From Bacillota bacterium (GTDB lineage: Bacteria; Bacillota_I; Bacilli_A; Izemoplasmatales; Hujiaoplasmataceae), in contig JAHIRM010000009.1 of assembly GCA_018818595.1 (NCBI GenBank), forward strand, positions 1-56,341: 56,341 nucleotides of DNA. Direction: 5' to 3'. Numbering within the stretch: the first letter of the stretch is position 1; every line of letters starts with the position of its first letter. Position numbers and translations under genes: made by a program. The notes under the pieces were generated by a model, which searched no databases, was not told the DNA's origin, and worked only from the letters and a program-made list of their open reading frames with translations. This document shows positions 4,698-53,625 of the stretch, one piece after another.

Positions 4698-4709
4698 AAG
4701 GAGTAAATG

Positions 4710-7103
4710 ATGAGAAAAGACATACATTTAAATTTTGATTGGTACTACCTTCCTGATTTTGACCCTAAATATATCAAAAAGGACGCTTCTTTATCTGACT
4801 TTAAAAAAGTCATGATTCCGCACACATTAAAAGAAATTCCGTTTCAATATTTTAAAGAAACGGATTATCAATTTATTGGGTCCTATGTAAAGCATTTTAC
4901 AGTGGAAAAAGAACTTCAAGAAAGCAACGTGCTTCTAAAATTTTTTGGTGTTATGAATGTATGTGAAGTATTCTTAAATGAAGTGTCACTTGGCATACAT
5001 GAAGGGGGATATACTCCTTTTTCCTATGATATTTCTTCTTTAATCGATTTTGAACATGAAAACACTATATTTGTCAAAGTAGACGCAACTGAAATTTCAA
5101 ATGTTCCTCCATTTGGAGATGTAGTAGATTATTTAGGATATGGAGGAATTTACCGAGAAGTTTGCCTCGAAATTAGACCAATTTTTTTTATTCATGACTT
5201 ATTTATCACTACAATAGAATCTCCTAATTTAAGCGAAGAAGAAATGTTGTTATTAGCAAAAATCAGATGGAATAAAACCCCTGAAGCAGAACATGACATC
5301 AATCTTTCGCTTTACCTAAAAGATGAAGTGATTTTATCAAAAGTAATCAAAGGCGAACTAGCTTTTGAAAGTGGTATTCAAGAATTAGTTGTAAATATTA
5401 AACGATGGACATTAGACAATCCCGTCTTATATAAATTAGAATTAGTTGTTTTAGAAAACGGAAAAGAAATCGATCACATTACCGAATCCTTCGGTTTTAG
5501 AAGCGCTAATTTTACAAGCGAAGGGTTTATCTTAAATAACAAATTAGTCAAGTTAATTGGCTTAAATCGTCATCAATCTTATCCATACGTAGGATATGCA
5601 ATGCCTTCCCGAATGCAAGCAAGAGACGCAGAAATTCTTAAATTCGAATTAGGTTGTAATATCGTCAGAACTTCTCATTACATGCAAAGTGATCATTTCA
5701 TCAAGAGATGTGATGAAGTCGGATTATTGGTATTTGAAGAAATTCCAGGTTGGCAATACATTGGTGACGATCACTTTAAAGAATTGTCTTTAAAAGCGCT
5801 TGAAACGATGATAGAACATCACTTTAATCATCCATCCATTGTTTTATGGGGAGTTCGAATCAATGAATCTGCAGATGATCATGACTTTTATGAAAAAACC
5901 AATGAACTAGCCTATAAATTAGATAAAGTAAGACAAACCGGTGGCGTTCGTAATATGAAAAACAGTGAATTTTTAGAAGATGTGTATACTTACAATGATT
6001 TTTCTCATACCGGAGACAATCCAGGGCTTGAAAACCCAAGAAAAATCATCCATAAAATCGTTCCATATTTAGTGACAGAACACAATGGACATGTTTTCCC
6101 AACCAAAAAATGGGACTCAGAAAGCAAACGTTGTGAACAAGCTTTAAGACATTTAGAAGTGATGAATTCCAGTTTCCAATATCTTACAGTCAGTGGAGCA
6201 ATTGGATGGTGCATGACCGATTACAATACCCATAAAGAATTTGGTTCAGGCGATCATATCTGTCATCACGGGGTCATGGATATGTTTCGTATTCCTAAAT
6301 ATGCAAGTTACGCATACGCCTCTCAACAAATGAAAAAACCAGTTTTAATGGTCGCTTCCAATATGATGATGGGAGAATATTCAAAAAGTATTGTTCCACC
6401 AACCGTCATTTTTACTAATTGTGATTATTTAAAAATTTATCACAACGACCAACTTGTTGGTACCTTTTATTCTGATTGGGAAAAATTCCCTTATATTCCA
6501 AATGCTCCAGTTATCATTGATGACTATATTGGAGACCGAATTTTAGAAAACGAATCCTATTCTAAAAAAGTAGCTAAAAAGATTAAACAAGTGCTTTTAG
6601 CTTACAATCGTTATGGAACGGATATGCCTTTAAAAGACAAATTAAGCATGGCTAATTTAATGAGTGTTCATAAATTCACCATGAAAGATGCAATGGATTT
6701 ATATAGCAAATACATTGGTGGATGGGCAAAAGAAGGCTGTCTTTACAAGTATGAAGGGTACATGGATGATAAATTAGTTGCAACTTCAATTAGAGGACAA
6801 TCCAAAGAAGTCTTCTTAAAAGCTGAACTTGACGATAAAATACTCTTACACGATATCACCTATGATGTGACAAGACTTGTGGTTTCATTAAAAGACGAAT
6901 TTGATAATATTTTACCTTTTGCTAGCAACGTCATTGAAATTGAAACATCAAAAGAATTACAAATCATTGGACCTAATAAACTTTCGCTCCTTGGAGGCTC
7001 AACAGGAATCTATCTTAAAACAACCGGAATCCTTGGAAAAGCTTCCATTCGTATTCAATCAGTAGGATTTAAACCAATTTCGTTAAAACTTGAAATCAAA
7101 TAA
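4710..7103 (+). CDS. Beta-galactosidase-like glycoside hydrolase, GH2
   Basis: A roughly 797-residue GH2 enzyme with N-terminal sugar-binding and Ig-like domains followed by the catalytic barrel. The acid/base glutamate is in WGVRINES (Glu386) and the nucleophile in VTEHNGH (Glu457). The barrel also carries GLNRHQSYPYVG and NIVRTSHYMQS, typical of beta-galactosidases. Beta-glucuronidase or another GH2 activity remains possible. No signal peptide is present, so it is cytoplasmic. Two adjacent ATGs (4707, 4710) follow the AAGGAG ribosome binding site; the second has the better spacing and is chosen. It is the last gene of the kinase-GH36-GH2 operon, ending at a strong terminator. Confidence 0.9.
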   Translation: MRKDIHLNFDWYYLPDFDPKYIKKDASLSDFKKVMIPHTLKEIPFQYFKETDYQFIGSYVKHFTVEKELQESNVLLKFFGVMNVCEVFLNEVSLGIHEGGYTPFSYDISSLIDFEHENTIFVKVDATEISNVPPFGDVVDYLGYGGIYREVCLEIRPIFFIHDLFITTIESPNLSEEEMLLLAKIRWNKTPEAEHDINLSLYLKDEVILSKVIKGELAFESGIQELVVNIKRWTLDNPVLYKLELVVLENGKEIDHITESFGFRSANFTSEGFILNNKLVKLIGLNRHQSYPYVGYAMPSRMQARDAEILKFELGCNIVRTSHYMQSDHFIKRCDEVGLLVFEEIPGWQYIGDDHFKELSLKALETMIEHHFNHPSIVLWGVRINESADDHDFYEKTNELAYKLDKVRQTGGVRNMKNSEFLEDVYTYNDFSHTGDNPGLENPRKIIHKIVPYLVTEHNGHVFPTKKWDSESKRCEQALRHLEVMNSSFQYLTVSGAIGWCMTDYNTHKEFGSGDHICHHGVMDMFRIPKYASYAYASQQMKKPVLMVASNMMMGEYSKSIVPPTVIFTNCDYLKIYHNDQLVGTFYSDWEKFPYIPNAPVIIDDYIGDRILENESYSKKVAKKIKQVLLAYNRYGTDMPLKDKLSMANLMSVHKFTMKDAMDLYSKYIGGWAKEGCLYKYEGYMDDKLVATSIRGQSKEVFLKAELDDKILLHDITYDVTRLVVSLKDEFDNILPFASNVIEIETSKELQIIGPNKLSLLGGSTGIYLKTTGILGKASIRIQSVGFKPISLKLEIK

Positions 7104-7127: not shown

Positions 7128-8009
7128 TTAAATTATTCCATTATTTATTAAAAACATATAAATGATATAAATCGGTACGGAAAAGGAATACTCATCGGTT
7201 GTGCTATATCCCCAGGTGTTAAGACCTAACAAGTTACCATCGACATCAACCAATGCTCCACCACTTGAACCCTCATGAATGGAAGCGTTATGGAGAATCA
7301 CTTTAAAATCAGCATTTTCAATCGTTTCCATGCCTCTAAATTCACCGAAGGTAACATTATTTAAAACAGACAAAGGATTTCCTACAGCTAAGACTAATTC
7401 CCCTTCTGTAAACTTTGTATAAAGCCTTGTGGATATATCCATTAAATGGATGTCTTGACGATCATTTTTTAAAAACTTAACTACAGCTAAATCCAAACTT
7501 TCATCAAAACAAACAAGAATAGCTTCTGATTCATCGCTATCTTCAAATGCTTTTATTTGATAGGTGGCATCGTAGATATCATTATCAATAACATGATGAT
7601 TGGTTAAGGCATAATAATAGGTTTCATCTTCTAAGAAAATCACACCAGATCCAAGACTTGAGCCAACCGCTGTCCTTACAGTTTGCGTTGACCAAGGGTA
7701 TACTTTTGCTTCTGTATAAAGAGTTGTAAGGATTTCAACATTGGATTTTCTTATCATATCTCTTGTGTTAAGTAATACATCATTGTATTCATCTACATTA
7801 GTAATGAGATAGGTGTCTGATTCATAGTAAGAAAAAGTAGAATACTCTAAGTCTCCTAAACTAATGGTACCATTAATTGTATTAGGCATTGTGGTTGTAA
7901 GTGTAGTTGTGGTTGTGGTAGGAAAATCAAAAGTCATTGTTAAAAAAGAACATCCACTTAAAAATGTTCCAAACAATAAGATTACAAGCAGTACTAGTAG
8001 TTTTTTCAA
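7128..8009 (-). CDS. Trypsin-like (S1C/HtrA-type) serine protease lipoprotein
   Basis: A secreted lipoprotein with a type-II signal peptide (MKKLLVLLVILLFGTFLSGC, lipobox LSGC, Cys20) and a short Thr-rich tether (residues 31-40). The protease domain carries the catalytic triad: His139 in TNHHV, Asp173 in LDLAV and Ser249 in EGSSGGAL. No PDZ domain follows, unlike classical DegP/HtrA. It should be anchored on the outer face of the membrane. A TTG start at 8009 is preferred: it follows the strong GAGGTGAT ribosome binding site at normal spacing and begins MKK, while the GTG at 8018 and ATG at 8015 lie too close to that site. It is divergent from the giant CvpA-repeat gene. Confidence 0.85.
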   Translation of the reverse strand: MKKLLVLLVILLFGTFLSGCSFLTMTFDFPTTTTTTLTTTMPNTINGTISLGDLEYSTFSYYESDTYLITNVDEYNDVLLNTRDMIRKSNVEILTTLYTEAKVYPWSTQTVRTAVGSSLGSGVIFLEDETYYYALTNHHVIDNDIYDATYQIKAFEDSDESEAILVCFDESLDLAVVKFLKNDRQDIHLMDISTRLYTKFTEGELVLAVGNPLSVLNNVTFGEFRGMETIENADFKVILHNASIHEGSSGGALVDVDGNLLGLNTWGYSTTDEYSFSVPIYIIYMFLINNGII

Positions 8010-8105
8010 AATCATCACCTCAACTTATAATATACGTTTATTATATATCATTTTATTGGAAAAGGTTATACATTGACCTATTTATTTTCTTTTCAGGTTA
8101 ATTTT

Positions 8106-8135
8106 TTGACAAGGTTGCTTTCATTATGGTATAAA
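8106..8135 (+). promoter_or_regulatory. Promoter of the first giant CvpA-repeat gene
   Basis: Perfect -35 TTGACA (8106-8111) and extended -10 TGG-TATAAA (8127-8135) with 18-nt spacing, about 55 nt before an AGAGGGGG ribosome binding site and the ATG at 8191. A second AT-rich TATAAT at 8141 lies too far from the -35. Confidence 0.7.
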
Positions 8136-8190
8136 TGATATATAATATTAATATATATTTTTTCAGCACTTTAGTTAGAGGGGGAAAATT

Positions 8191-11100
8191 ATGCAAATTC
8201 CTGAAAATTTAGATTTTGTTTTATATTTTAATATAGCCTTTTTTTCAATGCTCGGTCTTGGAATGTTTTTTGGATTTCTAAGAGGATTTAAAAAATCGCT
8301 ATATTCTTTTATTACGACATTAATCTTCTATGTTTTCTTTTTCTTAACCATCAATATTGTAATTAATTTTCTATGGACATTGAGTATGCCGTGGCTTGGA
8401 GGAGCAGTTGGAGGATTTCTTCCTGCACTTGCGGATGTAACAAGTTTAAAAGATGCCTTGCCTATTTTACTTCAAAATTTTCTTCCCGAACAATTTACTC
8501 AAGTTCTTGAAAATGATGAATTCCTCGCTTTTACGACTGGAGTCAGTCTTTTTGTCATTAAAATTGTTTACACTATTTTATATTTTACCGTAATTCAAGT
8601 GATCTATAAATTGCTTTTCTTCTTTATTCGTATCATTTTCTTTGGATCAAGTAAAAAAGAAGATAAATATAGATCTAAAAATAGAGGATTTGGTGCACTA
8701 TTTGGTTTATTAAGTGGAGCAATCAGTGTATTTGTAATGTTAATCATTGTTGGTGGACTAATCAGCATGGGTGAAAGTTTAGTATCTTTACTTCCTTCAA
8801 CCGATGATACTCAAACCGTTTCAATTGATTTTCCAAGACAAAACATCTACGAAGCAAGTTATTCCGTTATTCCTCTTGCATCCCCAATCGAAATCCCGGA
8901 AGAATTCACTGCCGCAATTGACATGATGAACTCAATGGTTGAAGCTTTCAATACAAATATTGTCGTGTCTACCACTTCTCAATTTACTATAATTGATGAA
9001 GCAACAGGCATCGACTTGCCATTAAATCTATACTTGTTTGACTCGGTATTGTCTTTTACGTATCGAGATGAAAAAATTTCCGTTCGTAACGAATTAGCAG
9101 TTGTATCACAAATAGCAGGTATTGCTATAAATTCAGCGTATATGGATACAAAGAATGTAAGCGATATTTCAGGAGATGACGTTAGCTTAGTTTTTGATAC
9201 ACTTTCATACTCTGATTTATTTACTTCGATAATGCCTTTAGCTATCGAAGTTGCTGCAGATTATTTTGATACTGAAATTACTATTCCAACAGAAGAACTC
9301 TATGCAATCGATTGGCAACTGGAATTAGAACAATTAGGAGACATCGCTGCTATTGTTTTTGATTTAGTGAATAGCGCAGGAATCTTTAACGATGAAATGG
9401 ATTTAGAAACCGTTACAATTGATGGAGATACCGTAAGAGATTTGTTTGATTCCTTAGGAAATTCGGAACTAATAACGCTTGGTGCCTACGTTGCGGTCGA
9501 GCCAGTTTTACTTCAAGCAACAGAACAAATTCAAGCCATAATAACCGTTCCAACTGACCTTGTTTGGGAAGATGAGTTTGTAGCAATTGGCGCTGTAATA
9601 GGAGCAATTCTTGATACAGATATTACAGTAGGTCAAATTCAATCTGGAGACGCTATGCTCATCATTGGTGCTTTGGCTCAACTTGATTTTACCGTATTAC
9701 TCGATTCAAAAATTATTACAAACGCTTTGAAGAACGTTTTATCTGGTGCTGCGGGCATTGAAGGATTAGATATGCTTGTTATCCCAGATGATATTATTTG
9801 GTTTGATGAACTAGATGATGATGGAAACGTCATCTTAAATGGTGAATTGCGAAATATTTTACTTGCAGTTAATTCCATTGCGAGTCAAACAGAAGATATA
9901 GATATTAATAACATTGACATCTATATGATTGCAGATTTAGATGTAGAAGCAATTAATTCCTTGTTTGAGTCTAAAATACTTGTTGCTACCTTATCTAGTT
10001 ATATTTTAGAACAAGATTTTGGTGACCTTGTCTTAGTGATCCCTGATTCTGTATTTGATGAGAATGACTATTTATTAAAAGAGGAATTACAAGCTTTAGC
10101 ATCTTCTATAAAACTTGTTTTCACTGATTTGGCCTGTGAGGTAGAAGATACTACTTGTGCTGAAACTGGATTTGATCTTTCCAAAGCATTATCGTTAAGC
10201 GAAGCATCCATCGATACTTTATTAGCATCCGATATCGTAGCTGCTACGGTTGGCGATTTAGTTATCGATATGGGAGCGGATAATTTAACCATCCCAAGTT
10301 CTGCATTGATTGAAATCTTTGTTGGAGGAATCGGGCAAGATGTTATTTCCAAACCAGAAATTAAAAATGCATTTCTAGCCATTTCTGTTTTAGGAATTAC
10401 CGACATCAACAATTTAGAAGTTGATGCATCTATCTTATCAAATTTAGGTACAGAACTAGATCCAACTATTCTTGATAATGATAAAACCGATAAATTATTT
10501 GCTTCAAGCATTCTTCATGCAACACTTTCCACTATATTATTAGATTTAACTACTGAAGATGAATCAGTGATTTTGGTTCCTTATAAAAATATAGACGAAG
10601 AAGACATCCGTTATACCAACGTAACCGATTCGATTGAATATATTTCAACCGAAGAATTGACTGCGCTAATAGGAGCAATCTTGGTGCTAGATATTACTGA
10701 TTTTGCTAATTTTGATACATTGAATTTAAATTTAGTGATAGATAATTCAGATACTTTATTGGAATCTGCTATTTTGCATGCGACCATTTCCAAACAACTA
10801 TTTGACATGGTTAGTGATGGATTTGTAACAGTACCTTATATTGATGAACACGAAAACCCAATTCGGGTCACTGTAGGTGACGCTGGATTTGAAACAGAAT
10901 ATATTGAAAAGGAAGAATTAACAAATGCTTTTGATGCATTAGGTGTACTAGGAATTACGGACATTACCTTGTTTGATGGAAACATCGATTTATCAGTAGT
11001 AGCACAAGATGATAATGCATCAATCTTGCTTTCGTCTTCCATTATTCAAGCAACCGTTTCTAAAACCATTTTGGATTTAGAAGTAGATGATACACTTGAT

Positions 11101-14100
11101 GTGCCTTATGTTGCAGATGATGACATAACAGAGATTCGAGTGACGGTAGGTTCTTTTGGTTTTGAAACAGAATACATTGTATCTTCGGAAATCGAAGCCA
11201 TTATTAAAGCACTTGATGTCTTAGAAATTACGGACATGGAAAGTTTTACTGGAACAATTGATTTAAGTGTATTAGCAGACGATACGAATTCACAAACCGT
11301 ATTAGCATCTTCTGTAATTCAAGCAACCATTTCAGCTCAAATAATCGATTTAGACACAAATTTAACTTTAAACGCACCTTACGTTTCAGAAGATGACATA
11401 ACACCAATTAGAATAACAGTCGGTCCTCTTGGATACGAAACAGAATATATCACAAAAATAGAACTAGATGCCATTTTTGAAGCATTGAACATTCTCGGAA
11501 TTACTGATGTTGAATCCTTTACTGGAACCGTTGATTTAGGTGTACTAGCAGAAGGAGATAATGCTTCGATTGTATTAGAATCTTCTGTAATCCAAGCGAC
11601 GATTTCTAAAACCATTTTAGACTTAGATTTGGATGGAACCTTAGACGTTCCTTATTTTGCACAAGACGATTCTACTTTAATCAGAATAACCGTTGGAGCC
11701 CTTTTGGAAGAGTTTGAATACATTTCAGCTCAAGAATTAGAATCGGTTATTTTAGCCCTTGATGTTCTTGAAATTACCAATGTAGAATTGTTTACTGGAA
11801 GCGTCGATTTAAGTTTACTTGCAGATGATACCAATTCACAAATCGTTTTATCTTCTTCCATCATTCAAGCGACGATTTCAACCCAAATCATTGACTTAGA
11901 TGTTGCTGGAACGTTAGATGCACCTTACCTTGCAGATGATGATATTACCGCAATTCGGGTAACGGTTGGAACTTTAGGATTTGAAACGGAATATATTATT
12001 AAGACGGAATTAGATTCCATTTTTGACGCATTAAATGTTTTAGGAATTACCGATGTTGAATCTTTCACTGGAAGTGTAGATTTAAGTCTTTTAGCGGAAG
12101 GAAACAATGCTGCAATCGTTTTAGCCTCTTCAGTTATTCAAGCTACTGTCTCAACTCAAGTTTTAGAATTGGATGTAGCAGGAACCATTGAAGTTCCATA
12201 CGTTGCAGACGATGATTTAACGCTTATACGAGTTAGTGTGGGCCTTGGACTTACCGCTACCGAATATGTGGTAAAAACCGAACTAGAAGCCATGATTTTT
12301 GGACTTGATATATTAGAAATTACCGATGTTGAAAGTTTTGATGGATCGATTGATTTAACATCATTTTATGATGAAACAAATCGAAATATTTTACTCTCAT
12401 CTTCAACCATGCAAGCTACCATTTCAAAACAATTACTCGATTTAGGTTCAGCATCCCTTACTGTGCCATACGTTGACGCTTCAAGCGTTGTGATTCGACT
12501 TACCGTTGGCACGTTAGGATTTGAAACCGAATACGTAACTAAACTAGAAATTGGAGCTATTTTTGAAGCTTTAGAAATACTTGAAATCACAGATGTCACT
12601 ACTTTCTCAGGAGACATTGATTTAACAAGTTTCTATATAGAAGACACTCGCACTGTTTTATTGACTTCAGCATCCATGCATGCGACTGTTTCAAAACAAT
12701 TACTTGATTTAGGATCTGACGTTTTAAACATTCCATACACTGCATCAGATGACTCAACTGAAATTAGAACGACAGTAGGACCATTTAGTTTTGAGACTGA
12801 ATTTGTTGTAAAAGATGAAATTCATGCTATTTTTGAAGCATTAGAACTGCTAAATATTACAGACATTGATAGTTTTACTGGTTCGATTGATTTAACAAGT
12901 TTCTATATAGAAGAAAATAGGACCATCTTACTTACTTCAGCTTCCATGCACGCAACCATCTCGAAACAATTATTTGATTTAGGTGATGAAGTTTTAACGG
13001 TTCCATTTGAAGATTTTGATGAAGCAGCTATCAGAGTAACCGTAGGTGAGTTAACTTTTGAAACGGAATACATTACAAAAGCAGAAATCTCAGCTATGTT
13101 TGAAGCGTTAGAAGTTTTACAAATTACTGACATCAATACTTTCTCTGGAACAGTCAATTTAACAAGAGTATATGGAGATACCAATCAAAACATTATCTTA
13201 GCTTCTGCATCCATGCATGCAACCATTACAAAACAATTAGATGATTTAGGATCAGAAGTTTTAGTTATTCCTGATACTGATGTCGATTCTATTTCGATTA
13301 ATAAACTTGTTTTAGGATTACACTTCATTTATAAAACCGAATTAAAAGCGATTATTAATGCATTAGAGATACTTGGAATTACTGATATTAACTCTTTTGA
13401 TGGTTCAGTATCTTTAGTCAATCTATTTGATGATACCAATCAAACTATCTTACTATCTTCTGCATCTATGCACGCAACCATTACACAACAATTAGATGAT
13501 TTAGGACCTTTGGTACTTACGATACCTCTTACCGACGTAGATAACGTTTCTATTCAAACAATCATTCTAGGATATCACTTCATTTATAAAACCGAAATAA
13601 AAGCCATAATCAATTCTCTTGAAATATTAGGAATTACAAACATTACTTCCTTCGATGGAACGGTATCTTTATTAAATCTATTTGATGATACCAATCAAAA
13701 TACATTATTATCCTCAGCATCTATGCACGCAACCATCACCCAACAGTTAACTGATTTGGGATCTGAAATTCTGTTAATCCCAACTCACGATGTCGATAGT
13801 GTTTTGATTCAAGCCGTTGTATCTAGCACACTCTTTATTTACAAATCTGAAATCAAAGCAATTATTAATGCACTTGAAGTGTTAGGCATCACAAACATTA
13901 CTTCGTTTAATGGAACGGTTTCATTAACGAACTTATACTCCGAGGCTAATCAAATCACCTTACTTACTTCAGCATCGATGCACGCAACCATTACCCAACA
14001 AATTGATGGTTTAGGTTCGTCAGTACTGTTAGTTCCTGAAAGGGATATTGATTCTAACTTAATTCAAGGAGATGTATTTACGACTCACTTTATTTACAAG

Positions 14101-15408
14101 TTCGAGATTAAAGCACTTATAAACGCACTTGAAGTTCTTGGAATCACCGATATTACTGCTTTCTCAGGAACATTTGATTTAAGCAAAGTTGCATTAGAAG
14201 CCGATCAAATTACGTTATTATCATCCGCTTCCATGCATGCGACCATCTCAAAAACATTATTTGAATTAGGAAGCGACGTTTTAATTGTTCCAACATTCTC
14301 ACAACTAGGAGAAATCGAAGCTAATCGCATTCAAGTTCTTGTTAGCTTAACTAATTTCATCATCAAAGGAGAGATTAAAGCATTAATTAATGCCTTTACA
14401 GCGATGGGATATACCGACCTTAATAGTTTTGGTGTTTCCATTGATTCTTCTGAATTCTTCAATGATCCAGATACCTTATTACTTTCTTCATCCATTCAAG
14501 CAACACTTTCTGATAAATTAATTAATGACACAGATGGAAACTTAATTGTACCAAATACAAATTACTTAACCACACTTACTATTCGCATCGTTCAAGCAGA
14601 TGTAACGTATGTAGAATTAAATGAAATGAAAGCCATCCTTAATGCATTAGAATTACTTGGCTTAACCGACTTCTCAAATATTGATATCAATCCTGCAAAT
14701 GTCTTTTCTGCAGACTTTGATGAATTACTTACTTCTTACTCTATGCAAGCCACCATTTCGAAAACTTTACTTGATGGTGCAGTACTTGATGGTTCTGGAA
14801 CAGGAGAACTCATCGTTCCAAACTTCTTTAGAGAAACCATAAACGTAGGACTAGGAACCAATGTTCAAATTGAAAAAGAGGAATTAAAAGCATTGCTTAC
14901 TTCACTTGAAACATTAGGAGTTTTAGACTTTGATGGAGCAATGGATCCTACAGTAGTTACATCAATGACAGATGAAGATTTAACAACCCTTCTACTAAGT
15001 GGTTCTATGCAAGTCACCATAGACGATATGCTTAAAGATAATCCAAATATTGTCGTACCAGATCTTGCAACAGAAGATGTATTTAATTTAACATCTATTA
15101 CGACAAAAGTAGAAATAAAGGCCTTTATTATCGCTACTCAATTAATGGGTGCTACCGATATTTCAACTGTATCATTCAATTACATGGTTATTGCAGCATT
15201 AACACCAGAACAAAGAGATGTTGTATTAGATTCCATGATTGTTAGAAATCTATTAACCGATCAATTAGAAGCCACAATGCTAGCTGATGATCCATTTGAC
15301 TTATACTGGCCACTTGATTCCGAATATGAAGATCCTTTGGATCCTTCTGGAACTTTCTTAACCGAAGTCGGAATTAATAATGTCTTAACACACTATGGTT
15401 TTATCTAA
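8191..15408 (+). CDS. Giant membrane-anchored repeat protein with CvpA-like N-terminal domain (2405 aa)
   Basis: Residues 1-200 hold four hydrophobic segments with the layout of the CvpA/colicin V production family: a G.FRGFKK loop after helix 1 and a basic KSKNRGFGALFGLLSG segment before helix 4. The positive-inside rule puts both basic loops in the cytoplasm, so everything after helix 4 should be outside the cell. That exported part is about 2,200 residues, containing about 22 tandem units of ~90 residues (hallmarks LSSS..ATIS..L.DL, VPY, IR.TVG, ETEY, GITD). It ends in a conserved tail, YEDPLDPSGTFLT then GINNVLTHYG. The protein is acidic and almost free of Cys. It may be a surface fibre, adhesin or cell-wall spanning structure. 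The function of the repeat is unknown to me. It has its own strong promoter and terminator. Confidence 0.85.
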   Translation: MQIPENLDFVLYFNIAFFSMLGLGMFFGFLRGFKKSLYSFITTLIFYVFFFLTINIVINFLWTLSMPWLGGAVGGFLPALADVTSLKDALPILLQNFLPEQFTQVLENDEFLAFTTGVSLFVIKIVYTILYFTVIQVIYKLLFFFIRIIFFGSSKKEDKYRSKNRGFGALFGLLSGAISVFVMLIIVGGLISMGESLVSLLPSTDDTQTVSIDFPRQNIYEASYSVIPLASPIEIPEEFTAAIDMMNSMVEAFNTNIVVSTTSQFTIIDEATGIDLPLNLYLFDSVLSFTYRDEKISVRNELAVVSQIAGIAINSAYMDTKNVSDISGDDVSLVFDTLSYSDLFTSIMPLAIEVAADYFDTEITIPTEELYAIDWQLELEQLGDIAAIVFDLVNSAGIFNDEMDLETVTIDGDTVRDLFDSLGNSELITLGAYVAVEPVLLQATEQIQAIITVPTDLVWEDEFVAIGAVIGAILDTDITVGQIQSGDAMLIIGALAQLDFTVLLDSKIITNALKNVLSGAAGIEGLDMLVIPDDIIWFDELDDDGNVILNGELRNILLAVNSIASQTEDIDINNIDIYMIADLDVEAINSLFESKILVATLSSYILEQDFGDLVLVIPDSVFDENDYLLKEELQALASSIKLVFTDLACEVEDTTCAETGFDLSKALSLSEASIDTLLASDIVAATVGDLVIDMGADNLTIPSSALIEIFVGGIGQDVISKPEIKNAFLAISVLGITDINNLEVDASILSNLGTELDPTILDNDKTDKLFASSILHATLSTILLDLTTEDESVILVPYKNIDEEDIRYTNVTDSIEYISTEELTALIGAILVLDITDFANFDTLNLNLVIDNSDTLLESAILHATISKQLFDMVSDGFVTVPYIDEHENPIRVTVGDAGFETEYIEKEELTNAFDALGVLGITDITLFDGNIDLSVVAQDDNASILLSSSIIQATVSKTILDLEVDDTLDVPYVADDDITEIRVTVGSFGFETEYIVSSEIEAIIKALDVLEITDMESFTGTIDLSVLADDTNSQTVLASSVIQATISAQIIDLDTNLTLNAPYVSEDDITPIRITVGPLGYETEYITKIELDAIFEALNILGITDVESFTGTVDLGVLAEGDNASIVLESSVIQATISKTILDLDLDGTLDVPYFAQDDSTLIRITVGALLEEFEYISAQELESVILALDVLEITNVELFTGSVDLSLLADDTNSQIVLSSSIIQATISTQIIDLDVAGTLDAPYLADDDITAIRVTVGTLGFETEYIIKTELDSIFDALNVLGITDVESFTGSVDLSLLAEGNNAAIVLASSVIQATVSTQVLELDVAGTIEVPYVADDDLTLIRVSVGLGLTATEYVVKTELEAMIFGLDILEITDVESFDGSIDLTSFYDETNRNILLSSSTMQATISKQLLDLGSASLTVPYVDASSVVIRLTVGTLGFETEYVTKLEIGAIFEALEILEITDVTTFSGDIDLTSFYIEDTRTVLLTSASMHATVSKQLLDLGSDVLNIPYTASDDSTEIRTTVGPFSFETEFVVKDEIHAIFEALELLNITDIDSFTGSIDLTSFYIEENRTILLTSASMHATISKQLFDLGDEVLTVPFEDFDEAAIRVTVGELTFETEYITKAEISAMFEALEVLQITDINTFSGTVNLTRVYGDTNQNIILASASMHATITKQLDDLGSEVLVIPDTDVDSISINKLVLGLHFIYKTELKAIINALEILGITDINSFDGSVSLVNLFDDTNQTILLSSASMHATITQQLDDLGPLVLTIPLTDVDNVSIQTIILGYHFIYKTEIKAIINSLEILGITNITSFDGTVSLLNLFDDTNQNTLLSSASMHATITQQLTDLGSEILLIPTHDVDSVLIQAVVSSTLFIYKSEIKAIINALEVLGITNITSFNGTVSLTNLYSEANQITLLTSASMHATITQQIDGLGSSVLLVPERDIDSNLIQGDVFTTHFIYKFEIKALINALEVLGITDITAFSGTFDLSKVALEADQITLLSSASMHATISKTLFELGSDVLIVPTFSQLGEIEANRIQVLVSLTNFIIKGEIKALINAFTAMGYTDLNSFGVSIDSSEFFNDPDTLLLSSSIQATLSDKLINDTDGNLIVPNTNYLTTLTIRIVQADVTYVELNEMKAILNALELLGLTDFSNIDINPANVFSADFDELLTSYSMQATISKTLLDGAVLDGSGTGELIVPNFFRETINVGLGTNVQIEKEELKALLTSLETLGVLDFDGAMDPTVVTSMTDEDLTTLLLSGSMQVTIDDMLKDNPNIVVPDLATEDVFNLTSITTKVEIKAFIIATQLMGATDISTVSFNYMVIAALTPEQRDVVLDSMIVRNLLTDQLEATMLADDPFDLYWPLDSEYEDPLDPSGTFLTEVGINNVLTHYGFI
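9700..15290 (+). repeat. Tandem coding repeats (~22 units of ~250-277 bp)
   Basis: Units are marked by a [ST]S..[HQ]AT[IV]S core. Cores are seen near 9705, 9970, 10231, 10505, 10768, 11038, 11311, 11581, 11851, 12127, 12401, 12670, 12940, 13204, 13466, 13718, 13976, 14226, 14488, 14740, 15002 and 15234. The first four and last five units are most divergent and match units of the downstream paralogue. The central units are the most alike: one block uses IIQAT/VIQAT and a second block uses SASMHAT. Confidence 0.85.
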
Positions 15409-15420
15409 CAAAATAAAATG

Positions 15421-15452
15421 AAGTTGGGAACATTCGTTCTCAACTTTTTTTT
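15421..15452 (+). terminator. Intrinsic terminator of the first giant gene
   Basis: Stem AAGTTGGGAAC / GTTCTCAACTT (one G-U pair) with an ATTC loop, followed by eight T residues, 12 nt after the stop codon. Confidence 0.9.
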
Positions 15453-15473
15453 GCTTGCAGGATAAAAATTAAG

Positions 15474-15554
15474 ATGCCAAGAAAACTAGAACATGCAAAA
15501 CAAAGAGAAATCAAGCATCACAAAGAATTCGTTAAGTCATATTCCAAAAAATAA
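15474..15554 (+). CDS. Possible 26-aa basic peptide
   Basis: A short frame from ATG to TAA encodes a very basic peptide that starts MPRKLEHAKQ and ends VKSYSKK, with no membrane segment. It sits between the terminator of the first giant gene and the promoter of the second. Only a weak AGGA lies upstream, at a rather long distance. The lysine- and histidine-rich composition is unlike the surrounding non-coding sequence. It could be a real small nucleic-acid-binding peptide or chance. I do not recognise it. Confidence 0.25.
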   Translation: MPRKLEHAKQREIKHHKEFVKSYSKK

Positions 15555-15689
15555 TAATACAAAAATGAGTAAACAAAGAACTCTTAATTATGAGATGAAT
15601 TGTTTCTGATTTTTTTATATAAAAGTATTAATGTAAATTCTACCAATAATATATTCAAAAAAAACGTATAAATTATGAAGTCTACTCGA

Positions 15690-15717
15690 TTGTAATCTAC
15701 AAAAAATAAGGTATAAT
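15690..15717 (+). promoter_or_regulatory. Promoter of the second giant CvpA-repeat gene
   Basis: -35 TTGTAA (15690-15695), 16-nt spacer and perfect -10 TATAAT (15712-15717), about 20 nt before an AGGGGGGG ribosome binding site. Confidence 0.6.
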
Positions 15718-15749
15718 TAAAGTGAGACATTTTTAAGGGGGGGATTATT

Positions 15750-18700
15750 TTGGATTTAGGGTTTTTAACATCCATCAATTTGTTGTTATATATCATCTTA
15801 GGACTTGGAATATTAATGGGATTATTAAGAGGAATGAAAAAAACACTTTTTGCATTTGTTACCATGCTAATTTTTTACATTGTCTTTTTTCTAACCATTA
15901 ATCAAGCATCCTTATTTCTTTGGAAATTGAATATGCCTTGGCTTGGAGGAATCCTTTCAAACATTGATTCTTCTTTATCTACTTTTACTTCCTTTGAAGC
16001 AAGCATAGGACAAATCGTTCAATTCATTTTAGGAGAAACGGTTGACGTGTCAGCCAACGCTGAATTACTCGTTTTAGCGAGTGGAATAGGGTTGTTTGCC
16101 GTTAAAATTATCTACTCTATCTTATATTTCACTGTTATTTTATTAATCTATAAACTTATTTGTTTCATCCTTTCATCTATTATCCTTGGGAAGGCCCAAA
16201 AAGGCGAATCTAAAAATAGAGGATTTGGAGCGTTATTTGGTGCTTTAAATGGAGTTATGGCCGTATTTGTAACTTTAATAATGCTTGGTGGAATCATGAG
16301 CGTTGCGGAAAGTGTCACAACCTTGATTGCATCAACTGAATCAACTACGCCACTTGCATTCCAAACAAGAGACGAAATCCTTCAATTAGATTATTCTGTT
16401 ATTCCTCTAGCTGATGTTCCATCTTCCGATGATTTAAATCTCATCATCGAAGATTTACAAGCAATGGTCACAGAATACAATAATAATTTTTTAGTCAAAC
16501 TAGCAGATTCGATTACGGTTACTTCCGCAAGTACTGGAGAAGAAATTGCGCTTCACCTTAATTTGTTTGATAGTATTTTATCTTTTGAATATAACGATGA
16601 AGTTATTGCATTTCGCTATGAATTAGCAGTTTATGCAGAAGTACTTGGTATCTTTTTAGAATCAGATTACTTTGACACTCAAGTATTGTCAGATATCACA
16701 GGTGATGAAATTAGAGATGCGTTTGCATCCCTTTCTAAATCAAATTTAATTATTTCAGTTTTGCCTTTGGCCATTGAAGTTGGGGCCGATATGTATGATC
16801 AAGAATTACCAATCACCACTCTTGAATTATATGCAATCGATTTTGAAGCAGAACTTGCAAATCTTGGAGTCATTGCAGGAACTTTATTTGATATTCTAAA
16901 TGGAGCCGGAATTATAGCCGGTGATGGCGGAGTAGAAGATATCGTAGTAGGTGGAGATATGGTTCGAGGTTTATTTGGAGACTTTTCGGATTCATCTTTA
17001 ATGGTGTTACTAACTTCAAGTGTACTCGTTCCAATGCTCGAAGATTCAGACTCTGGCATTTCAGCCATTATTTCTGTTCCTGCTGATTTAGATTGGGAAT
17101 CGGAATTTATTGCCATTGGAGAAGTATTAGGAGCTGTTCTTGACGCGGATGTTTCAATCGCTGATTTACAAGAAGTAAATATGACTATATTTTTAAATGC
17201 AGCAGCTTCCATTGATTTAACCGTACTAATGAATTCGGTTTTAATTACAAATGCTTTGGTCAATATTTTGTCAGGCAATACCGACATTGAAGGCCTGGAT
17301 ATACTTATTATACCAAGTGGTGTAGAGTGGTACGATACATTAGACGCTTTTGGTAATGTAATTGAAAATGGCGAATTAAGAAATGTCTTAATTGCTTTAA
17401 ATGCCTTAGCAACTGTAGCCGGAGATGTTGATTTTGAAAACTTCGGATTAAATACTATTTCAGAAATGGACGATGATACGATTGATGATTTATTTAACTC
17501 AAGAGTATTTGTCGCAACGATTTCTGACATGCTTTTATCTCAAGATTTAGGAGATACTCCACTAATTATTCCAGATACTGTTTTTGATATAGAAGGTTAT
17601 TTATTAAAAGAAGAACTAAAAGCTCTTTCAAAAAGTATTATTTTGATATTATCTGACTCGGAAACTGAAACAGGTTTTGATGTTGCAAAAGCATTAACAC
17701 TTTCTTCTTTAGAACTTGATACGTTCCTAGATTCAGAAATCATTAGCGCAACCATTGGAAAAATGGTTGTGGATATTGACTCCGATCAATTAATCGTTCC
17801 AAGTGAAATTATCGTCTCTATTTTAGTAAATGAGATTAGTCAAGATGTCGTTTCAGCCACAGAAATCAAAAACTTTATTTTAGGACTTCATGTAATGGGA
17901 ATTACAAATTTTGATACAATTGATTTAGAAGATACAAGCGCACTAATGAATAATATTGAAGAGATTATTCCTTCGAAAATCATTCACGCTACTATTTCAA
18001 ATCAAATTTTAGGAATTAGTTCTTCCATCATTACGATTCCTTATGAAGATGAACTTGGAACACCGATTTCTTATGATGTTTTTGAAACTACATATATTAC
18101 CTCGGATGAATTAACTGCATTTATGAATGCTCTTGATTTAATCGGGATTACAAATCCAACCGAATTTTCAAACGTTTTCTCATTAACCGATTTAATACTA
18201 GAAACAGATCAAGATACACTACTTACTTCTGCAATCATGCAAGCAACCATTTCCAAAACACTATTTGATTTAGGAGATGAAGTTTTACTAATACCTCAAA
18301 CAAAAGATGATGCAATCAGTTTGTTAAGAGTGGAATCAGGCCCTCTTGGATTTGAAACAGAATTTGTTGTTAAGTCTGAAATTAAAGCGCTAATTAATGC
18401 GCTCATAGCAATGGAATATTCCGATTTAAGTTCTTTTGGGACTTCCATTGATTCTGCTAAATTCTTTGAAGAATCAGACACGATATTATTATCTTCATCC
18501 ATGCAAGCTACTTTATCTTATAAAATGTTAAACGATACTTCAGGAAACTTAGTAGTTCCTGATGAGGATGTTTTATCGAATACGATTCGCATTCCTTTAG
18601 TGGATGTTGAATATATCACAATAGATGAACTAGGGAAAATCATCGATGCACTCGACTTACTTGGATTAAATGATTTAACCACATTCACGATTTCTCCTAC

Positions 18701-19424
18701 ATTACTTTTCACAATGGATTTTAATGATTTACTAGATTCTTCGACAATGCAAGCAACCGTTTCAAAATATCTTTTAGATAATGCATTAGACGAAACAGCG
18801 CCAGTAGGGTCTACTTCTTTACTAGTTCCAACCATCTTAAGAGAAACTATTAATGTGGATTTAGTCGCAACAGAACAAATAGAAAAAACTGAATCAATTA
18901 AACTGTTAGATGGTTTAAAAGTTTTAGATATTGAAAATTTTACGGATGATGTCGATTCCTCATTAATTACGACCTTGACACACGCTGAATTAATTACATT
19001 ATTATCTAGCGGTTCTATGCATTCGACCATTGATAATATGCTTCGTGGAAACACAAATATTAATACATTCATTCCTGCACTTGCAGAAACATCTTTATAC
19101 GGAATACCAGTTATTACTTTGTCAGATGAAATTATTGCCTTTATTGAAGCTGCCAATATATTAACAGGACCTGGAGCGGACTTTATGACCGTTGAGGTTG
19201 ATTATTTAACCATTGCAGGACTTAGTGAAACAGATCGAAACATCGTGTTAAATTCTATGATTGTAAGAAATATCACAACCGATCAATTAGAAGCTGTTAT
19301 GTTAGCGGACCCAGACCCTTATTGGCCAGCGGACGCTGATTACGAAGATCCTTTGGATCCAGCAGGAACCTTCTTAACCGCAGCCGGTATTACCAATGTA
19401 TTAACCCACTGGGGATTGATTTAA
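15750..19424 (+). CDS. Paralogous CvpA-repeat membrane protein (1224 aa)
   Basis: This has the same architecture as the 2405-aa neighbour. Four hydrophobic segments occupy residues 1-190, with LLRGMKK after helix 1 and ESKNRGFGALFGALNG before helix 4. An acidic extracellular region with about 9 tandem ~85-90 residue units follows, and the same tail closes it (YEDPLDPAGTFLT, GITNVLTHWG). The start is TTG, placed 6 nt after the G-rich ribosome binding site. The first four and last five repeats correspond to the terminal units of the larger protein, so the two genes arose by duplication and then differed in the number of central units. It is a separate transcription unit with its own promoter and terminator. 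Function is unknown; surface exposure is inferred from topology. Confidence 0.85.
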   Translation: MDLGFLTSINLLLYIILGLGILMGLLRGMKKTLFAFVTMLIFYIVFFLTINQASLFLWKLNMPWLGGILSNIDSSLSTFTSFEASIGQIVQFILGETVDVSANAELLVLASGIGLFAVKIIYSILYFTVILLIYKLICFILSSIILGKAQKGESKNRGFGALFGALNGVMAVFVTLIMLGGIMSVAESVTTLIASTESTTPLAFQTRDEILQLDYSVIPLADVPSSDDLNLIIEDLQAMVTEYNNNFLVKLADSITVTSASTGEEIALHLNLFDSILSFEYNDEVIAFRYELAVYAEVLGIFLESDYFDTQVLSDITGDEIRDAFASLSKSNLIISVLPLAIEVGADMYDQELPITTLELYAIDFEAELANLGVIAGTLFDILNGAGIIAGDGGVEDIVVGGDMVRGLFGDFSDSSLMVLLTSSVLVPMLEDSDSGISAIISVPADLDWESEFIAIGEVLGAVLDADVSIADLQEVNMTIFLNAAASIDLTVLMNSVLITNALVNILSGNTDIEGLDILIIPSGVEWYDTLDAFGNVIENGELRNVLIALNALATVAGDVDFENFGLNTISEMDDDTIDDLFNSRVFVATISDMLLSQDLGDTPLIIPDTVFDIEGYLLKEELKALSKSIILILSDSETETGFDVAKALTLSSLELDTFLDSEIISATIGKMVVDIDSDQLIVPSEIIVSILVNEISQDVVSATEIKNFILGLHVMGITNFDTIDLEDTSALMNNIEEIIPSKIIHATISNQILGISSSIITIPYEDELGTPISYDVFETTYITSDELTAFMNALDLIGITNPTEFSNVFSLTDLILETDQDTLLTSAIMQATISKTLFDLGDEVLLIPQTKDDAISLLRVESGPLGFETEFVVKSEIKALINALIAMEYSDLSSFGTSIDSAKFFEESDTILLSSSMQATLSYKMLNDTSGNLVVPDEDVLSNTIRIPLVDVEYITIDELGKIIDALDLLGLNDLTTFTISPTLLFTMDFNDLLDSSTMQATVSKYLLDNALDETAPVGSTSLLVPTILRETINVDLVATEQIEKTESIKLLDGLKVLDIENFTDDVDSSLITTLTHAELITLLSSGSMHSTIDNMLRGNTNINTFIPALAETSLYGIPVITLSDEIIAFIEAANILTGPGADFMTVEVDYLTIAGLSETDRNIVLNSMIVRNITTDQLEAVMLADPDPYWPADADYEDPLDPAGTFLTAAGITNVLTHWGLI
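17226..19300 (+). repeat. Tandem coding repeats (~9 units)
   Basis: Unit cores lie near 17230, 17502, 17732, 17971, 18230, 18493, 18736, 19010 and 19252, about 253 bp apart. They share the SS..QATIS, VP, EIKALINAL and GITN/GLND hallmarks with the larger paralogue, and are more divergent from each other than the central units of that gene. Confidence 0.8.
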
Positions 19425-19433
19425 TTATTCAAT

Positions 19434-19468
19434 AAAAAGAAAGAGGTTTCATTTCTCTTTCTTTTTTT
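19434..19468 (+). terminator. Intrinsic terminator of the second giant gene
   Basis: Stem AAAAAGAAAGAG / CTCTTTCTTTTT with a 9-nt loop and T tract directly after the stop codon. Confidence 0.85.
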
Positions 19469-19515: not shown

Positions 19516-21105
19516 ATGAAAAAAATACTATCCTTTTTTATAATTATTTTGACAACTTTTCTATTGGTTGGTTGTGCTTTCTTTTCATCTTCCACGACGA
19601 CCTCTTCAAGCGCTTCAACCACCACTACAACGACCACTTCAACTGTCTTTAGTTCTACGGATACATCTATTCTTGGGACAGAGACAATTGATCTTTACTC
19701 CATAAATGATTATCATGGAGGAGCTTACTCGGATTTATCTGATTTTTATGAGATGAGTGAATTTTTATATAATCAAAAAGCGACAAATGAAGCAGTAATT
19801 ATGGCAACGGGTGATATGTTTCAAGGAACCGCTTTATCTAATTATTATTATGGGTTACCTTTCGTTAAAGCTTTTAATTATATTGGCCTTGATGCATTCA
19901 CCATTGGAAATCATGAATTTGATTGGGGAATCGATATCATTAAAAATTACGCCGATTCAGATTTAGAAAATGGCGAAGCAGATTATCCTTTTTTAGCCGC
20001 AAATATTGTGTATAAAGATACACAAGAAATGCTTCCTTGGACAACGCCTTACAAAGTCGTTACAGTTAAGGGTGTAAAAGTTGGAATCATTGGGATCATT
20101 GGAGATGTCATAGGCTCCATATCGGCTTCTAAAGTTTCAAATATCGAATTTTTAGATCAAGCGGATACCGTGTACCAATACGCTGAAATATTAAGAACAA
20201 CAGAAGATTGTGATATCGTAGTTGCTTCCATTCATGACTATAATTCTTCTATGAACGAAGAAATTGCTGGATTCACAGGAGTTCATTTAGTAGACGCTAT
20301 TTTTAATGGACATACTCATACAGATGTTGCTTCTTTTATATCAAGAACAGGTGTTCGTATGCCTTACGCTCAAGTAAGCAGTAAATACTTTTCCTTAATT
20401 GCTAAAATTTCACTTGTATATGATTTTCAATCCGAATCAGTGATAAGCGCAGAAAGTTACATCATTGGCACAAGTGTTTTAGGCGATGAAAACGCTTATG
20501 TTAATCAATTAATTAATGTGTTTGCTGATGACGAAGATTACGTAGACTATGTTACAGAAGTCCTTGCTATTGCGGATGATTCCATCGACACAGAATCAAA
20601 GAACGATTTGGCTAATTGGGCCGCAACCGTAATTAAAGACTACTTAGAACTTGATTTTGGAGTGCTAAATTATTCAGGAGTAAGAAAACAAATTTATCCA
20701 GGGGAAATTACTATGGGTGATTTAGTGGAAGTAATGCCTTTTGATAATTACATCAAAACAGTTTACTTAACAGGAGAAACCATTTTAGACTTGATGAATG
20801 ATGATTATCTTGCTTTTAATTATCATCCGGATACTTTTTTAGTAGCTTCTCAACTTTACAAAGTCGGAGTGGTTGATTTCGTATTTGACATGGTAGATGA
20901 CTATGGTAATCCTTCCTTTGATTTTGCTTATGGAGAAAACATTGTCACCACAACCGTATTAATTCGCAATTTATTAGCAGAGGATCTTAGAAATACCACA
21001 GGAGATTTTGATCCAATCAATGGGACAAGTTATGATACCTTAAATCCTGTAACGTTTTCTTTTCGTTCTTCGTTTTATTTAGATATTTTAAAATCCATTC
21101 TGTAA
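19516..21105 (+). CDS. 5'-nucleotidase/UshA-family metallophosphatase lipoprotein
   Basis: A 529-residue exported phosphoesterase. A lipoprotein signal ends in LVGC (Cys20), and a Ser/Thr-rich tether follows (residues 24-48). The metallophosphatase domain has all five blocks: D65-x-H67 in NDYHGG, GDMFQG (Asp100), GNHEFD (Asn132, His133), His240 and GHTHT (His266, His268). A 5'-nucleotidase C-terminal domain follows (NYSGVRKQIYPGEITMGDL, MPFDN). The family releases phosphate from nucleotides or UDP-sugars outside the cell. A TATAAT (19481-19486) and a CGAGG ribosome binding site precede the ATG. The pyrimidine-nucleoside phosphorylase two genes on suggests a role in salvage of external nucleotides. 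Confidence 0.88.
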   Translation: MKKILSFFIIILTTFLLVGCAFFSSSTTTSSSASTTTTTTTSTVFSSTDTSILGTETIDLYSINDYHGGAYSDLSDFYEMSEFLYNQKATNEAVIMATGDMFQGTALSNYYYGLPFVKAFNYIGLDAFTIGNHEFDWGIDIIKNYADSDLENGEADYPFLAANIVYKDTQEMLPWTTPYKVVTVKGVKVGIIGIIGDVIGSISASKVSNIEFLDQADTVYQYAEILRTTEDCDIVVASIHDYNSSMNEEIAGFTGVHLVDAIFNGHTHTDVASFISRTGVRMPYAQVSSKYFSLIAKISLVYDFQSESVISAESYIIGTSVLGDENAYVNQLINVFADDEDYVDYVTEVLAIADDSIDTESKNDLANWAATVIKDYLELDFGVLNYSGVRKQIYPGEITMGDLVEVMPFDNYIKTVYLTGETILDLMNDDYLAFNYHPDTFLVASQLYKVGVVDFVFDMVDDYGNPSFDFAYGENIVTTTVLIRNLLAEDLRNTTGDFDPINGTSYDTLNPVTFSFRSSFYLDILKSIL

Positions 21106-23190: not shown

Positions 23191-23204
23191 ATAAACGTAA
23201 TAAA

Positions 23205-23298
23205 AATAAGGGGAGCTTAGAGAACTAGGCTGAGAGTATAACTAATCTGTTATAGACCTTACCTGATCTGGATAATGCCAGCGTAGGAGTATCTTTCC
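23205..23298 (+). promoter_or_regulatory. TPP (thiamine pyrophosphate) riboswitch, THI element
   Basis: The conserved core is plain: CTGAGAG after the stem AGCTTAG/CTAGGCT, a variable hairpin TATAAC/GTTATA, then ACCTGATCTGGATAATGCC and AGCGTAGGAG, with CTGG/CCAG as the pyrophosphate-side helix. It lies directly upstream of the thiT gene and is followed by a hairpin with a T tract. This suggests thiamine pyrophosphate turns the gene off by transcription termination. Confidence 0.95.
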
Positions 23299-23308
23299 TT
23301 TAATATCA

Positions 23309-23366: not shown

Positions 23367-23975
23367 ATGAAAAAGAAAAATCAGATTCAAATTATTGCCG
23401 AAATTGGTGTGTTAACTTCTATTGCTTTGGTATTAGATTTGCTCGCAAATCTATGGGGACCTCTTCTTGGTTTTGTCAATGGAGGAAGTGTATCGATTGC
23501 GATGCTGCCTATTTTTGTTATTGCCTTTCGAAGAGGTATTCTTCCAGGACTAGAAGCTGGATTAATTCTTGGAGTGTTGCAAATTGCGTTAGGGAAATTT
23601 TACTACTTAAATTTCTTTCAATTTATGTTAGATTACATCCTCGCTTTTACACTTGTAGGATTTGCAGGTCTTTTTAGAAAGGGATCTTTTAAACCAAGTC
23701 ATTTAGTCTATGGGATGCTTTTAGGTAGTTTTTTACGATTAGTGTCAGCGTATTTTGCAGGAGCACTCTATTGGTCTGCCTATATTCTAGAAGGAATTCA
23801 AGGAGTAGATAGTACCCTTCACAGTAATTTTGCTTCATGGCTTTTAACGCCAGAATCTATCACTTGGGTTGGGTCATTTATTTATAATGCAGCCTATTTA
23901 ATTCCTTCTGCTTTGCTTTGTATTTTATTTGGATTGATCTTACAAAAACGAGGAATTTTAACGGTCAATCATTAA
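23367..23975 (+). CDS. thiT: Thiamine transporter ThiT (ECF S-component)
   Basis: A 202-residue membrane protein with six hydrophobic segments. It works as the substrate-binding subunit of an energy-coupling factor transporter that imports thiamine with the shared EcfA/EcfT module, which is not in this window. The family motifs are visible: AFRRGILPGLEAGLILGVLQ in the second/third helix region, the FQFMLDYILAFTLVGFAG segment, and a late conserved aromatic stretch (ALYWSAYILEGI) in a thiamine-binding loop. Size and topology agree with ThiT. An AAAGGAG ribosome binding site precedes the ATG. The TPP riboswitch directly upstream independently supports the substrate. Confidence 0.95.
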   Translation: MKKKNQIQIIAEIGVLTSIALVLDLLANLWGPLLGFVNGGSVSIAMLPIFVIAFRRGILPGLEAGLILGVLQIALGKFYYLNFFQFMLDYILAFTLVGFAGLFRKGSFKPSHLVYGMLLGSFLRLVSAYFAGALYWSAYILEGIQGVDSTLHSNFASWLLTPESITWVGSFIYNAAYLIPSALLCILFGLILQKRGILTVNH

Positions 23976-53332: not shown

Positions 53333-53409
53333 TGGCGACCCGAAAGGGATTCGAACCCACGACCGACGGCTCCGGAAGCCGTTGCTCTATCCAGCTGAGC
53401 TATCGGGCC
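53333..53409 (-). tRNA. tRNA-Arg(CCG)
   Basis: A 77-nt cloverleaf including an encoded CCA. Acceptor stem GGCCCGA / TCGGGTC, D-stem GCTC/GAGC, anticodon stem ACGGC / GCCGT with loop TTCCGGA (anticodon CCG). The T-arm GTGGG-TTCGAAT-CCCTT has one T-T mismatch and a G-U pair. Discriminator is G. Confidence 0.95.
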
Positions 53410-53431
53410 AGCTATCAAATTTATTTTATTT

Positions 53432-53508
53432 TGGCGACCCGGAAGGGATTCGAACCCCCGACCGACGGCTTAGGAAGCCGCTGCTCTGTCCTGCTGAGCT
53501 ACCGGGTC
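53432..53508 (-). tRNA. tRNA-Arg(CCT)
   Basis: A 77-nt cloverleaf with encoded CCA. Acceptor stem GACCCGG / CCGGGTC, anticodon stem GCGGC / GCCGT with loop TTCCTAA (anticodon CCT), T-loop TTCGAAT, discriminator G. It lies 22 nt upstream of tRNA-Arg(CCG) in one transcript. Confidence 0.96.
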
Positions 53509-53518
53509 ACGCATTATT

Positions 53519-53546
53519 ATTATATCTTATTTTTACGAAAAAACAA
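53519..53546 (-). promoter_or_regulatory. Promoter of the tRNA-Arg(CCT)-(CCG) unit
   Basis: Minus strand -35 TTGTTT (53541-53546), 16-nt spacer, -10 TATAAT (53519-53524), about 10 nt before the tRNA. Confidence 0.65.
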
Positions 53547-53587
53547 AAGTTTATTTTAAATCCAATTACTAAAATAGATCAAAAAAT

Positions 53588-53614: not shown

Positions 53615-53625
53615 TTTTTAAAATA

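Follow-up and report, generated by a model that had tools for sequence, protein, structure and literature searches.

Adjacent genes for two giant repeat proteins with a CvpA-like membrane domain in an Izemoplasmatales genome

Results

Two giant genes on one contig

We analysed a 56,341-nt stretch of DNA, hereafter the window, which is the whole of contig C9 (JAHIRM010000009.1) of a 1.87 Mb genome of the order Izemoplasmatales assembled in 60 contigs (GCA_018818595.1). It carries two adjacent genes for very large proteins, called here the long and the short giant, each composed of an N-terminal membrane domain resembling the CvpA family, an array of tandem repeats and a conserved C-terminal tail. 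The main features of the two genes are as follows (aa, amino acids; HMM, hidden Markov model).

8191..15408, + strand: long giant gene; ATG start; 2405 aa; CvpA-type membrane domain, repeat array, C-terminal tail
8191..8799, + strand: CvpA-like four-helix domain of the long giant, residues 1-203; hydropathy and profile-profile match of the family
9706..15204, + strand: 21 tandem repeats of ~85-91 aa in the long giant, residues 506-2338, spacing 83-92; repeat HMM, each E < 1e-3
15229..15405, + strand: conserved C-terminal tail of the long giant, residues ~2347-2405, DYxxxDxxxFLTxxG...
15420..15447, + strand: terminator-like hairpin 3' of the long gene, 12-pair stem followed by a T run; consensus match only
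15690..15717, + strand: promoter-like site 5' of the short gene, TTGTAA-16-TATAAT, 10/12; promoter scan overall not above chance
15750..19424, + strand: short giant gene; TTG start, G-rich ribosome-binding site; 1224 aa; layout like that of the long giant
15750..16334, + strand: CvpA-like domain of the short giant, residues 1-195; PF02674 below cut-off, AlphaFold2 helices
17280..19226, + strand: 8 tandem repeats in the short giant, residues 511-1159; repeat HMM
19254..19421, + strand: conserved C-terminal tail of the short giant; tail profile
19434..19466, + strand: terminator-like hairpin 3' of the short gene; consensus match only

Both reading frames are open under table 11, the standard bacterial code, and the N-terminal 230 residues of the two proteins are 47% identical, so the initial annotation of adjacent paralogues of 2405 and 1224 aa holds. 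Since terminator-like hairpins follow both genes, the data suggest that the two giants are made from separate transcripts. A cleavable signal peptide was not found in either protein, and at neither C-terminus (...FLTxxGINNVLTHYG-like) was an LPxTG motif or a hydrophobic tail segment found; the giants are thus not of the sortase-anchored type, again as first described. The ectodomain is nearly free of cysteine and strongly acidic (362 D/E versus 74 K/R). The tail profile built from the Izemoplasmatales giants also matches the extreme C-terminus of giants of the Haloplasma family, with E values from 6.9e-19 to 8e-9.

The N-terminal domain is a divergent CvpA domain

To our knowledge, phenotypes have been recorded for the CvpA family but no mechanism. 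Like CvpA / Colicin_V proteins (PF02674), the giants have four N-terminal helices, an R/K-G loop after the first of them (RG in the giants), and a basic loop with an LG-x-x-x-G motif ahead of the fourth. By hydropathy, residues 1-203 contain four strongly hydrophobic stretches, with none comparable downstream, and the AlphaFold2 model of the short giant places long helices at residues 5-27, 29-59, 104-146 and 157-194. Residues G24, G28, G160, G164 and G181 are invariant in the family alignment.

Against the curated Pfam cut-off of 29.3 bits, the two whole window proteins score only 7.7 and 17.5 bits with PF02674, and the N-terminus of the short giant taken alone reaches 22.8 bits (E 9.8e-5). 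With an E limit of 0.1, the same model matches 20 of the 33 family members (best E 8.8e-7), and giants of related genomes exceed the cut-off: a 1619-aa frame in G100 (30.5 bits), an 845-aa protein in G064 (33.5 bits) and a 1105-aa frame in G139 (39.1 bits with its neighbours in frame). When the alignment of the 33 giants was compared by hhalign with that of 23 ordinary CvpA proteins of the same class, the match extended over 145 columns and all four helices (probability 96.1, E 3.4e-9). The Pfam check proposed for the N-terminus therefore succeeds for giants of related genomes and fails for both window proteins, while the CvpA-like character itself is borne out by the profile-profile match and by the relatives above the cut-off. 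Judged by these comparisons, the N-terminal domain of the giants is a divergent CvpA domain.

The giants contain this domain and are nevertheless no ordinary CvpA proteins. Ordinary members in this class have ~160-260 aa, whereas complete giants from Izemoplasmatales loci have 875-3160 aa; small size, with little beyond the membrane domain, is typical of CvpA / Colicin_V and is not seen in the window proteins. Nor do the giants replace ordinary CvpA, because the window's genome also holds a 242-aa CvpA on contig 13 (PF02674, 49.0 bits).

In the long giant, the loops between helices 1 and 2 and between helices 3 and 4 carry net charges of +3 and +4, and the loop between helices 2 and 3 carries −5; the part following helix 4 has a net charge of −290 in the long and −144 in the short giant. 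Basic loops on one side and acidic parts on the other support the predicted extracellular location of the repeats, in accordance with the initial use of the positive-inside rule. The filament size given to these surface proteins in the initial annotation is an inference.

The repeat array

Repeat units were counted with an iterated repeat HMM, which gave a spacing of 73-92 residues across both giants. The initial annotation had 22 and 9 copies; the repeats are confirmed and the counts are not, the HMM finding 21 and 8. One divergent N-terminal unit per giant may account for the gap, and in the AlphaFold2 model a similar helical rhythm begins upstream of the HMM units, near residue 318. Most units have E values of 1e-9 to 1e-35, which excludes chance; the first unit is weaker in both giants (2e-5 and 3e-6). 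The units of the long giant are 14-77% identical to one another, and at the DNA level there is a single, short recent tandem duplication (13177-13761, period 255, 77% match), so most of the array is old.

A three-unit AlphaFold2 model, calculated from 111 aligned three-unit stretches, had a mean predicted local distance difference test score (pLDDT) of 94.7 and a predicted template modelling score (pTM) of 0.90. Each unit consists of three to four helices and a two-strand hairpin, with a near-invariant Ser opening the first helix, Pro of a V-P turn and Glu of the third helix. Searches of Pfam, NCBIfam and PHROG with the repeat gave no family above cut-off, and the fold matches from PDB and BFVD to the repeat and N-terminal models all had E of 0.17 or worse (VIA Z at most 2.2 and 5.0, respectively). 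The repeat is thus as unrecognised as first stated, with no convincing match to PDB in sequence or fold, although this does not prove that its fold is new.

Several candidate identities were considered. With the sequence profile of one repeat, the best PDB match was a designed protein over 22 residues (E 0.0028), which we judged to be chance. A calcium-binding EF-hand in the LGITD...DG loop was rejected, as the acidic positions are not conserved between units. If unit borders are ignored, the succession helix-helix-helix-hairpin looks like a winged helix, and winged-helix proteins do occur among the weak Foldseek matches, all with E of at least 0.25 and a VIA-align Z of 2.2 at best. DNA-binding repeats, hinted at by this likeness and by a DNA-degrading lifestyle, are disfavoured because the ectodomain is strongly acidic.

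Duplication and the variable middle

The window's family, f1, usually has one long and one short giant, and in those f1 loci that were inspected completely the two are neighbours. A maximum-likelihood tree of N-terminal domains groups the short paralogues in a single clade (support 99/98), which makes one duplication the most likely origin of the pair; the two genes would have stayed adjacent ever since. The other families of the order have one giant and different neighbours.

Comparison of units, made with 20 units of the long giant after its weak first unit was left aside, revealed collinearity: short units 2, 3, 5, 6, 7 and 8 best match long units 1, 2, 17, 18, 19 and 20, in the same order. 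By this alignment, the short giant corresponds to both ends of the long one, and the middle of the array is the variable part. Complete homologues have from 3 to 28 units.

Distribution and relation to the cell wall

The initial annotation proposed a search for the same combination of N-terminus and repeats in other genomes, and it was found: homologues are present in 48 of 61 relatives, among them Izemoplasmatales, the complete genome of Mycoplasmatota bacterium zrk2 (CP076020), which carries both giant genes, and a Haloplasma contractile bin. A giant was defined as an N-terminal match plus an open frame of at least 800 aa; of 296 genomes sampled across the class, 89 had giants so defined, with frames up to 6056 aa. 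They belong to families f1-f3, f7, f9, f10 (taken to be the Haloplasma family), f12, f16, f18, f20 and f22; in f9 and f12 the N-terminal matches are weak (E 1e-3 to 1e-8), and the assignment leans in part on the length of the open frame. Matches to the repeat profile came from f1-f3, f10, f12, f16, f18, f20 and f22. In the phylum sample, every match and genome listed came from this one class. On these profile matches, the two giants are no isolated pair: they belong to an order-wide family with members in several further families of the class.

Of the 39 genomes sampled from the order, none has the penicillin-binding transpeptidase domain PF00905, in agreement with a wall-less state (PMC8397711, PMC10868615). 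Beyond the order, 28 of 133 genomes with the transpeptidase have giants, as do 33 of 124 without it (Fisher p 0.31, a rough guide only, as the genomes are kin). Given these similar frequencies, the giant family probably predates wall loss, and a coat that substitutes for the wall is not supported as its sole role.

Other extended CvpA genes were observed as well. The longest member seen is a ~6050-aa open frame (G169:C7, L116:1-18147); its N-terminus is CvpA-like, but the repeat profile does not match it. Giant CvpA-like genes (2960, 998 and 845 aa) of the walled family f7 lie at L172:3-12160 and L165:501-3038 and adjoin a gene that by eye looks like murA; L172 again has two adjacent giants. 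A second extended kind of ~490-806 aa recurs in f3, f10 and f18; several lie near genes that by eye resemble tsaD and glutaminyl-tRNA synthetase, and PF02674 is the sole Pfam match in those scanned. Its positions are given below.

L163:3164-5500, L164:3379-5718, L170:3250-5670, L167:2753-4501, L166:4351-6063: second extended CvpA kind

Neighbouring genes

The genes and regions flanking the giants are as follows.

7128..8018, − strand: divergent trypsin-like protease, predicted lipoprotein; PF13365, E 9e-20; lipobox Cys23; triad H142, D176, S252
8019..8190, no strand: divergent intergenic region common to the protease and long giant genes; gene arrangement
19516..21105, + strand: metallophosphoesterase / 5'-nucleotidase; PF02872, PF00149; syntenic downstream neighbour in the f1 loci compared

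The lipobox Cys and the catalytic triad of the protease are identical in 24 of 24 homologues. In 27 of the 29 f1 genomes with a close homologue, the protease lies directly beside a giant on the same contig, and in the remaining two (G017 and G019) it is on another contig of a fragmented assembly. Its apparent absence at loci L033 and L069 was an artefact of antisense reading frames in GC-rich genomes: translation of the other strand recovered it in L069, and a genome search did so in G011, the genome of L033. With small exceptions, the gene order in f1 is protease (divergent), long giant, short giant, 5'-nucleotidase.

Glycan-use genes at 1405-7103 (BadF/BcrA-type ATPase, GH36 melibiase, GH2) precede the protease; they are syntenic in several f1 relatives and replaced in others. 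Elsewhere in the window there is a thiamine pyrophosphate riboswitch (23199-23306, 59.8 bits) upstream of the gene at 23367-23975, and three tRNA-Arg genes (anticodons ccg, cct and tct) are clustered at 53333-53702 on the minus strand.

Discussion

Comparison with known systems

The four N-terminal helices of the mycobacterial protein MarP (Rv3671c) belong to the CvpA family. As in the giants, whose membrane side is predicted, they are followed by a large extracytoplasmic part, which in MarP is the protease itself (PMC4992679). In the giants a repeat array takes its place, and the trypsin-like protease is encoded apart from them, as a predicted lipoprotein (7128-8018); a protease domain was found on neither giant chain. 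Because of MarP, CvpA-type helices with a large outside domain are not without precedent.

Gli349 of Mycoplasma mobile, a giant surface leg, has a membrane segment at its N-terminus and contains 18 repeats of ~100 residues (PMC7052211). It shares with our proteins the layout of a giant repeat protein of a wall-less bacterium, and the likeness is one of layout only: Gli349 has a transmembrane segment, arms, a foot and an internal motor, whereas the giants have four helices and a different repeat. Giant1-5 of fructophilic lactic acid bacteria are likewise encoded by adjacent genes for very large extracellular proteins (PMC12863079). Compared by their description, they differ in having 3000-8000 aa and in occurring in walled lactobacilli, and the abstract does not mention a CvpA anchor.

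Searches of the available literature for CvpA giants found no description. The initial statement that no such system had been described therefore stands for the combination and not for CvpA-type helices with an outside domain, which are known from MarP. Giant surface repeat proteins are known in mollicutes and lactobacilli; what appears undescribed is the union of a CvpA anchor with a giant repeat array, widely conserved.

Proposed function and alternatives

We propose that the giants are membrane-anchored surface fibres of variable length on a CvpA anchor, processed by the protease in f1, a proposal that we regard as evenly balanced between right and wrong. The anatomical findings are much firmer: gene anatomy, CvpA homology, predicted repeat structure, conservation, duplication and protease linkage come from the computations themselves, and it is the surface location (from the charge rule), the fibre shape, an adhesive or coat role and cleavage by the protease that are inferred. 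The CvpA module would sit in the membrane with both ends outside and serve as anchor and targeting signal; the remaining ~1000-2200 residues would form an acidic chain of ~90-residue alpha/beta units reaching out from the membrane, and the conserved tail would end this chain and may be a contact or assembly tip. The ends appear to be kept while the middle array grows or shrinks by unit duplication, so that long and short giants, and the giants of different species, would differ mainly in reach. Trimming, release or quality control of the fibres in f1 is most likely the task of the surface lipoprotein protease, whose gene diverges from the long one.

This proposal is supported by the CvpA homology, by the charge topology together with the MarP precedent, and by the compact, confidently modelled repeat fold. 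The acidic, nearly cysteine-free ectodomain, the constant ends with a variable middle, and the tail kept as far as genomes of the Haloplasma family also support it, as do the one duplication kept side by side in f1 and the strict linkage there with a secreted-side protease. By analogy, Gli349 lends support as a surface leg in another mollicute. Several points weigh against the proposal. No ligand-binding or adhesin domain was recognised in the giants. A cultured Izemoplasma is reported to have coccoid cells, and a surface appendage is not mentioned in the part of the description consulted (PMC8397711). The protease is not linked to giants outside f1. Finally, some genomes with giants have kept penicillin-binding transpeptidases, and outside the order there is no tie to wall loss, so the giants are not simply a substitute for the wall.

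An unlikely alternative is an envelope sensor controlled by proteolysis, in which the ectodomain senses, the lipoprotein protease cleaves under stress and the CvpA domain changes state, like MarP split into two chains. The conserved divergent protease with its intact triad beside the f1 giants agrees with it, as does the joining of four N-terminal helices to an extracytoplasmic trypsin-like protease in MarP. Roles reported for CvpA / Colicin_V are colicin V export or bile-salt resistance (PMC6705877), and its loss gives envelope-stress phenotypes, e.g., deoxycholate sensitivity, in enterohaemorrhagic E. coli and Vibrio (PMC6705877), which also fits a sensor. However, the restriction of the protease linkage to f1 is hard to reconcile with it, there is no signalling domain inside, where only short loops lie, and sensing does not need 2000 residues of repeats.

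Somewhat less probable again is a membrane scaffold that organises the envelope in walled and wall-less members, e.g., as a spacer or by organising secretion or envelope synthesis. The occurrence of giants in genomes with and without transpeptidase, the nature of CvpA as a general envelope protein family and the ordinary CvpA kept alongside the giants in the window's genome would suit such a role, but the neighbours differ among families and point to no common envelope pathway.

We consider it improbable that the fibres are arms for nutrient capture, collecting nucleotides, DNA or glycans for the products of neighbouring genes (5'-nucleotidase, nucleoside phosphorylase, glycosidases). The downstream 5'-nucleotidase/metallophosphoesterase and a pyrimidine-nucleoside phosphorylase are syntenic in f1, and cultured Izemoplasmatales are reported to degrade extracellular DNA (PMC8397711, PMC10470597); against this, the strongly acidic ectodomain is unfavourable for DNA binding, and the synteny is lost outside f1.

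A cytoplasmic repeat region forming an internal scaffold would agree with the lack of a cleavable signal peptide and with the reliance of wall-less cells on internal skeletons, but it is very improbable indeed, as the positive loops lie on the side opposite the repeats, the C-terminal domain of MarP is outside, and the protease conserved together with the giants is predicted to be an outward-facing lipoprotein.

Returning to surface fibres, a broader and more tentative version, which we hold to be somewhat doubtful, is that they constitute a hitherto undescribed, class-wide system of CvpA-anchored fibres with a new-fold repeat, older than the loss of the wall around the mollicutes, and that CvpA generally anchors very large outside domains.

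Taken together, the giants show CvpA in a clear new context, that of anchoring outside domains. They are also a candidate, open to test, for the cover or extension of the cell surface in free-living bacteria without a wall. Since a sequenced strain (zrk2) has both genes, this question is directly testable.

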